Assembly: GCA_947598585.1 (NCBI GenBank)
Contig: CANQFK010000001.1
Coordinates: 1-64,000, forward strand
Direction: 5' to 3'
DNA: 64,000 nucleotides
Origin: an uncultured Clostridia bacterium
Lineage (GTDB): Bacteria; Bacillota; Clostridia; Christensenellales; Pumilibacteraceae
The position numbers and the translations under genes were made by a program. Below are positions 28,516 through 29,667 of the stretch, piece by piece. Every line of letters starts with the position of its first letter. Within the stretch, counting starts at the first letter, position 1. The notes below the pieces were generated by a model. That model saw nothing but the letters and a program-made list of their open reading frames with translations, had not been told where the DNA came from and did no database searches.

Positions 28516-29667
28516 TTATAGATTGGTCAAAGCAAAGATATTTGCCAGCGCGTCGGTCATGCCGTCCATTTCCGCCTCCGTAATGGTGAAGGGCGGCGTT
28601 ATCCTCAGAGTGTTGTGATCGGTCTGATCGAGCAAAAAGCCGAGGCTTTCCATTTGTCCTATGATCTTTGCCGCTTTGAGATTGGGAGTAAGTTCTATTC
28701 CCACGAGCAGACCTATTCCGCGTATCTCGGCAATAAAATTGTGCTTTTTGAGTTTGCTCAGCTTGCTCATAAGGTAATCGCCCTTTGCCTCGATCTCGGC
28801 GAGCATGCCCGAATGAAGTCTGTCAACTACCACGAGCGCGGTCGTGCAAGCAATGGACGAGATCCTGAACGCGCTTATACGATCCGACGGGGAGAGGGAG
28901 GAGGATATTTCGCCTCGCGCGAGAACGGCAGCTATGGGTATACCTGCGCCCATACCGCGAGCGATCATGACTATGTCGGGTTGAATGCCGTACTGTTCGA
29001 ATGCAAACATTGTGCCCGTTCTGCCCAAGCCTATGCCCGTTTCGTCGTAAATTATAAGCGTGTCAAGCGACTTGCACATCGCGTACGATGACAGAATAAA
29101 CTCGTACTTATTTATAACGACGCCGCGTTCGACCTCGATAGGAGAGAAGATGACCGCGCACACGTCGTTGTCGAGCGCCTTTTTCAGATCGTCGGGGTGC
29201 GGCTTGACCATGCGAATATTCAGGCTGTGGTGGCGTAAGGATTCGTATTTCGACGAAGAGGCGTCGGATACGATCAAAACGGTGCTTCGGGGATCCTTTG
29301 CTTCGGCGCGATATTTTCGTATCATCATGCCCACGATGAGGTGCGTGTCGAAAATACTGCCGCAAAAGCACGCCTTGGTAAACGCCGTCTTATCGCAAAT
29401 GCTTTGCGCAAGCAGCGAGTGCAATTCGTTATAGTAAAGGTTAGAACAGCCGATGAACTTTTCGGCTTGATCTCTTATCGCCTCGGTGAGCATAACGTCC
29501 TTGTAACCAAGACAATTTTCGCCCAGCCCGGCTACAAAATCCAGATATGCGCGATCGTTGGTGTCGTACAAATAGTTGCCTTCGCCGCGGCAAAAGCACA
29601 AGTTGTGTCGCGGATAAGTTATTATCGAAAATTTGTTGTCTATCTCTTTTATTTGCGAAAAATCCAT
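28516..29667 (-). CDS. Class-III aminotransferase homologue, probably inactive (ArgD-like pseudoenzyme)
   Basis: 383 aa, colinear with acetylornithine aminotransferase (ArgD): YLYDTNDRAYLDFVAGLG at 32-49, GLGRTGTMFAFEQYGIQPDI at 213-232 and RGIGLLVGIEL near the C-terminus. The catalytic motifs are altered: the PLP lysine position (usual A-K-A-L-G-G-G) reads A-R237-G-M-G-A-G (CGC codon, 28957-28959); the phosphate loop SGAEA reads GSIFD (103-107); FHGR reads SSKYE; DEVQ reads DETG; the YGGNP segment is lost. The frame is intact over full length, so it is kept as a protein. It may regulate or bind ligand. Argument for transamination is weak. Confidence 0.8.
   Translation of the reverse strand: MDFSQIKEIDNKFSIITYPRHNLCFCRGEGNYLYDTNDRAYLDFVAGLGENCLGYKDVMLTEAIRDQAEKFIGCSNLYYNELHSLLAQSICDKTAFTKACFCGSIFDTHLIVGMMIRKYRAEAKDPRSTVLIVSDASSSKYESLRHHSLNIRMVKPHPDDLKKALDNDVCAVIFSPIEVERGVVINKYEFILSSYAMCKSLDTLIIYDETGIGLGRTGTMFAFEQYGIQPDIVMIARGMGAGIPIAAVLARGEISSSLSPSDRISAFRISSIACTTALVVVDRLHSGMLAEIEAKGDYLMSKLSKLKKHNFIAEIRGIGLLVGIELTPNLKAAKIIGQMESLGFLLDQTDHNTLRITPPFTITEAEMDGMTDALANIFALTNL

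Follow-up and report, generated by a model that had tools for sequence, protein, structure and literature searches.

The window analysed here, a stretch of 64,000 nucleotides from an uncultured Clostridia bacterium of the family Pumilibacteraceae (contig CANQFK010000001.1), carries on its reverse strand (28,516−29,667) a gene for a class III aminotransferase derived from ArgD, in which an arginine replaces the lysine that forms the Schiff base. Our results make it likely that this gene is an argD that outlived its operon and was repurposed, so that it now encodes a non-enzymatic binding or regulatory protein. The gene has been kept almost unchanged in eight genomes that lack arginine synthesis, although the catalytic chemistry is lost, and this combination suggests a new, probably non-enzymatic job. 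The ArgD-like protein is a bacterial pseudoenzyme that arose from a biosynthetic enzyme, and it has an unusual twin, a second pseudoenzyme, next door; pseudoenzymes of such origin are already known in bacteria, and this one is a variant of that kind. In the open-access literature that we searched we found no report of a conserved lysine-less ArgD, which is not proof of absence.

Family and motifs of the ArgD-like protein

A preliminary description, made from the DNA letters, had presented the gene as a full-length ArgD homologue with an intact frame, and this is borne out: the frame runs from ATG to stop over 383 codons with no internal stop, and the product matches the Pfam Aminotran_3 profile at 6.4e-60. 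Its best NCBIfam subfamily is argD (TIGR00707, 9.5e-75), but the score of 251.8 bits stays far below the family cut-off of 410. The nearest solved protein by sequence is the Thermotoga maritima acetylornithine aminotransferase (TM1785, PDB 2ord), homologous over the whole length, which is also the best Foldseek match in the PDB (TM-score 0.90) of the AlphaFold model of our protein (pLDDT 93.4, pTM 0.91). Profile and predicted structure both place the protein in the class III aminotransferase fold.

We compared the motifs of the protein in an alignment with approximately 45 relatives, which confirmed that the Schiff-base lysine is Arg237. The changes claimed for the cofactor motifs are confirmed as well, with two corrections given below. 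The phosphate loop NSGAEA is replaced by GSIFDT, in which Ser104 is kept and followed by Ile105, Phe106, Asp107 and Thr108; FHGR is lost, with a net deficit of approximately 15 residues after its site; and DEVQ has become Asp208-Glu209-Thr210-Gly211, keeping Asp and Glu and losing Gln. The YGGNP segment had been described as gone; the GSTFGGNP stretch of ArgD is in fact replaced in register by ISAFRISS, with no deletion. Arg237 and the loss of SGAEA, FHGR, the Gln and S-T-GGNP are common to all eight genomes of the genus. Asn76, Glu180 and Arg355, which we take to be substrate-side residues as in acetylornithine aminotransferases, are retained, and mutant ArgD structures (N79R and E198A) among the Foldseek matches support this assignment. 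The protein therefore shares with TM1785 these three residues and the Asp-Glu pair of DEVQ, whereas its missing cofactor motifs, its low argD score and the lack of an arginine pathway in its hosts set it apart.

Conservation and selection within the genus

All genomes used here are metagenome-assembled and 75−96% complete; our sample of the genus comprised eight of them, drawn from several studies. Full-length orthologues of the gene, with 69−82% identity and no internal stops, occur in all seven other genomes, and Arg237 is invariant (8/8). Since identical motif changes are found in eight separate assemblies from several studies, we rejected sequencing or assembly error as their source.

The preliminary description had suggested that purifying selection be looked for among homologues, and it is indeed seen. 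For the G002/G006 pair, the one in which synonymous sites are unsaturated, dN is 0.006−0.008 and dS approximately 0.29, giving a dN/dS of 0.02−0.03; maximum-likelihood values for the other pairs, in most of which dS is saturated, range from 0.01 to 0.09. Other genes of the locus show a dN/dS of 0.01−0.13 in the G002/G006 pair, the ArgD-like gene lying below most of its neighbours. The 34 canonical relatives share 81 conserved alignment columns; in the genus, 38 of these are unchanged and invariant, 12 are replaced and fixed (including K237R, G105I, E107D and A108T), and 31 are variable, the FHGR and Gln positions among them. Glu180 is kept in seven of the eight genomes; Asp208, Glu209, Thr210 and Glu50 are, like Arg237, invariant. 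Glu50 stands where Val is usual, and this change is common to all 11 degenerate copies, which come from four genera. These columns indicate that the design for PLP no longer constrains the cofactor site, whereas the scaffold is still held, as are some of the substrate-side residues.

The set of five invariant residues would also suit a new enzyme, one that gained a chemistry in which the lysine is not needed, PMP or no cofactor at all is used, and Arg237 serves as base or anchor. Replacements of the lysine that go with altered PLP chemistry do exist, as in the His of ColD. We nevertheless regard this explanation as improbable, because the protein lacks the Gly-Ala of the phosphate loop, the loop with FHGR and the Thr contributed by the partner subunit, all of which serve to hold PLP or PMP, and because the genus shows variation at several of these sites. 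Nor does the gene resemble a decaying relic under relaxed selection: the loss of the arginine pathway would be in keeping with decay, but the frames are free of frameshifts and stops in eight genomes, dN/dS is approximately 0.02−0.1, new residues have become fixed and the promoter is conserved. On the strength of the intact frames and the low dN/dS we rejected decay, which we hold to be extremely improbable. The same observations, with the confidently predicted fold, support the earlier suggestion of a pseudoenzyme kept for another purpose and not in recent decay. A conserved pseudoenzyme, its catalytic residues lost while the reading frame is under purifying selection, is thus a well-supported reading of the gene.

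Reading the DNA upstream of the gene, we noted a putative −10 box, TATAAT (29,676−29,681, reverse strand), 8 nt before the ATG and conserved in all eight genomes, and a −35-like element, TTGCAA (29,699−29,704, reverse strand), separated from it by a 17-bp spacer. The arrangement TTGnnn-17-TATAAT recurs throughout the genus (8/8), its −10 box 7−8 nt from the ATG, and a similar one precedes the gene in G017 and G032. In the neighbouring ATPase genes of the genus, too, the ATG follows closely on a −10-like box. With the −10 boxes of both pseudoenzyme genes only 4−8 nt before the start codon, leaderless transcripts are likely for both. In orphan argD copies that carry the lysine (G022, G034 and G018) the −10 box lies farther upstream. 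Upstream of the −35 box, at approximately 29,710−29,760, a motif like AAATTTCACA recurs by eye in about six of the eight genomes and is possibly the site of a regulator. No riboswitch or non-coding RNA was found near the gene.

Loss of the arginine pathway and origin of the gene

We were not able to find a second class III aminotransferase, and hence a canonical ArgD, in the genome under study (94.6% complete) or, by protein search, in its seven congeners. This bears on the proposal that the protein regulates a true ArgD by forming hetero-oligomers with it, or more generally joins a catalytic class III aminotransferase as its structural or regulatory subunit. Pairs of a dead and an active fold type I subunit are known: LCB1 of serine palmitoyltransferase, like the ArgD-like protein, has no catalytic lysine and forms a heterodimer with LCB2. 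LCB1, however, works with an active paralogue, and the genomes examined here contain none; the ArgD-like protein cannot regulate a "true ArgD" that was found in none of them, and we rejected a role as such a subunit, which is hardly credible.

The rest of the pathway is undetected as well. Searches of the eight genomes gave no match for argB or argJ, weak Asd-level matches for argC, PurB-level matches at most for argH, and for ornithine carbamoyltransferase only PyrB-level matches far below the cut-off; we presume these weak matches to be Asd, PurB and PyrB, given how they score and how these families commonly cross-match. These uncultured gut bacteria thus appear to be arginine auxotrophs, and the pathway genes expected beside an ArgD are not detected in them. 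A gene for an ArgR-like regulator (63,862 onwards, forward strand) is retained in the window despite the loss of the pathway.

Related genera suggest where the orphan came from. A UgpC/MalK-type ABC ATPase gene adjoins or lies near argC-argB-argD-argF in G030, G033 and G008. In G018, G019 and G034 a lone argD with lysine and canonical motifs is divergent to the ATPase gene, and these genomes also possess another argD, which belongs to a separate and distantly related arg cluster; G022 has an orphan argD with the lysine and an undetected arginine pathway. In G015, G017, G032 and the genus under study the argD beside the ATPase gene is degenerate. The ATPase-linked orphan ArgDs form one clade with 100% ultrafast bootstrap. 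In an AU test, the one alternative topology, which put the degenerate copies outside the ArgDs of the family itself, was not rejected (p = 0.12). The case for their descent is therefore built jointly on synteny and the tree; strict monophyly of these copies from sequence alone was dropped after this test. Synteny, and less firmly the tree, shows the ArgD-like gene to be the last survivor of an argC-B-D-F operon beside a UgpC/MalK-type ATPase gene.

We propose that, in the ancestral state, the ATPase gene would have been divergent to argC-argB-argD-argF; that argD would have stayed next to the ATPase gene when argC, argB and argF disappeared; and that, in the genus under study, ArgD would then have lost the lysine and most PLP contacts while keeping its fold. 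A restored lysine in relatives would speak against the pseudoenzyme reading of the preliminary description. Within the genus no copy has one; the lysine is present in degenerate copies of two other genera only (G015 and G017), and these have lost other cofactor motifs. Some degenerate members might therefore retain PLP chemistry. The four genera with degenerate copies include two, those of G032 and of the genome under study, with the change from Lys to Arg, which may have had one or two origins. Among the loci read after a search of 297 genomes of the order with a profile of the degenerate copies, no lysine-less copy was seen outside the family. In the G032 copy (L085, 11,853−13,133), Thr/Ala/Gly inserts of low complexity occupy the two places where motifs were lost.

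One bacterial family therefore holds a natural series, from canonical ArgD through motif-intact orphans (four genomes) and degenerate copies that keep the lysine (G015, G017) to those without it (G032 and the genus under study). With this series two questions become testable: why a biosynthetic enzyme should outlive its pathway, and which task an aminotransferase fold performs once PLP is gone.

Candidate functions and the neighbouring pseudo-ATPase

In the remodelled cleft that we predict, formed by Arg237, Glu50, Asp208-Glu209-Thr210 and Arg355, PLP would bind weakly or not at all and transamination would not occur. As to the precise job and partner of the protein, we infer that it is probably dimeric and would act by binding, without catalysis. 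Its ligand might be a carboxylate or an amino acid gripped by the retained substrate-side residues, which makes ligand sensing a possible role; alternatively, the protein may dock a partner protein. Transcription factors of the GabR/MocR type offer a parallel, in that their aminotransferase domain serves as a sensor with no need of enzymatic activity, regulation by GabR being independent of its aminotransferase activity (PMC6522883). MocR proteins differ in that they bind PLP and carry an N-terminal GntR DNA-binding domain. We found no such domain in the ArgD-like protein, whose 383 residues start directly in the aminotransferase fold and match Aminotran_3 only.

As first candidate partner we name, with low confidence, the product of the adjacent ABC ATPase gene (30,891−31,562, forward strand). 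Its nearest families are UgpC/MalK-type ATPases, and it too is a pseudoenzyme: Walker A reads GETGSLKT, and the Q-loop, LSGGQ and H-loop are lost. Throughout the genus (8/8) the gene keeps its place beside the ArgD-like gene and encodes only about 225 amino acids, in the window about 223; Leu, Phe or Tyr takes the place of the Gly that precedes the Lys of Walker A, and the Asp-Glu-Pro of Walker B is kept. The protein is predicted to fold with a pLDDT of 92. Its dN/dS of approximately 0.13−0.15 in the G002/G006 pair indicates faster evolution than that of the ArgD-like gene, though still under constraint.

It is an attractive, if rather unlikely, idea that the two proteins form a module, a dead ArgD dimer and a dead ABC ATPase assembling into a single sensor or regulator in which catalysis plays no part. 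In E. coli the PLP enzyme MalY represses MalT by protein contact, and MalK is a second contact repressor of MalT, both binding it directly (PMC10427625). The likeness lies in a dimer of PLP-enzyme fold that regulates by contact, as proposed for the ArgD-like protein, and in the part of a MalK-type ATPase in the control of MalT; MalY, however, is catalytically active and has PLP bound. It also belongs to a different aminotransferase subclass. No homologue of the MalT TPR domain (PF17874) was found in 12 genomes, including all eight of the genus, and repression of the MalT type is therefore unavailable here. Such a module would agree with the adjacency of the genes in all eight genomes and in G015, G017 and G032, with the absence of catalytic motifs from both proteins of the genus, both of them constrained, and with the −10-like box near the ATG of both genes. 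The adjacency, however, is inherited from the border of the old operon and provides no independent evidence for a pair, the ATPase evolves much faster than its neighbour, and in four of the eight genomes a lipoprotein gene separates the two. We thus see as doubtful the idea that a dead pair, left over at the edge of an arginine operon since deleted, has become one such complex throughout a genus of arginine-auxotrophic gut Clostridia.

G014, in which the arg operon is canonical, also has a degenerate UgpC/MalK-like ATPase beside that operon (L093, 6,473−7,480); this ATPase carries GEPGSGKRT and no longer has the Glu of Walker B. The losses in ATPase and ArgD are therefore not strictly linked, which also counts against a two-protein module; with this counterexample and the ancestral adjacency, we rejected co-degeneration as proof of a functional pair.

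Two further genes were noted at the locus. Between the two pseudoenzyme genes lies a putative lipoprotein gene (29,807−30,643, reverse strand) with the lipobox LSAC, whose product has no Pfam match; same-place homologues occur in only four of the eight genomes, and the encoded protein varies from 278 amino acids here to more than 1400 in G004 and G007; the gene was also noted at the loci L072 and L075. Adjoining the pseudo-ATPase gene is a gene for a Coat F domain protein of the spore coat type (31,599−32,024, reverse strand), with homologues in all eight genomes of the genus.
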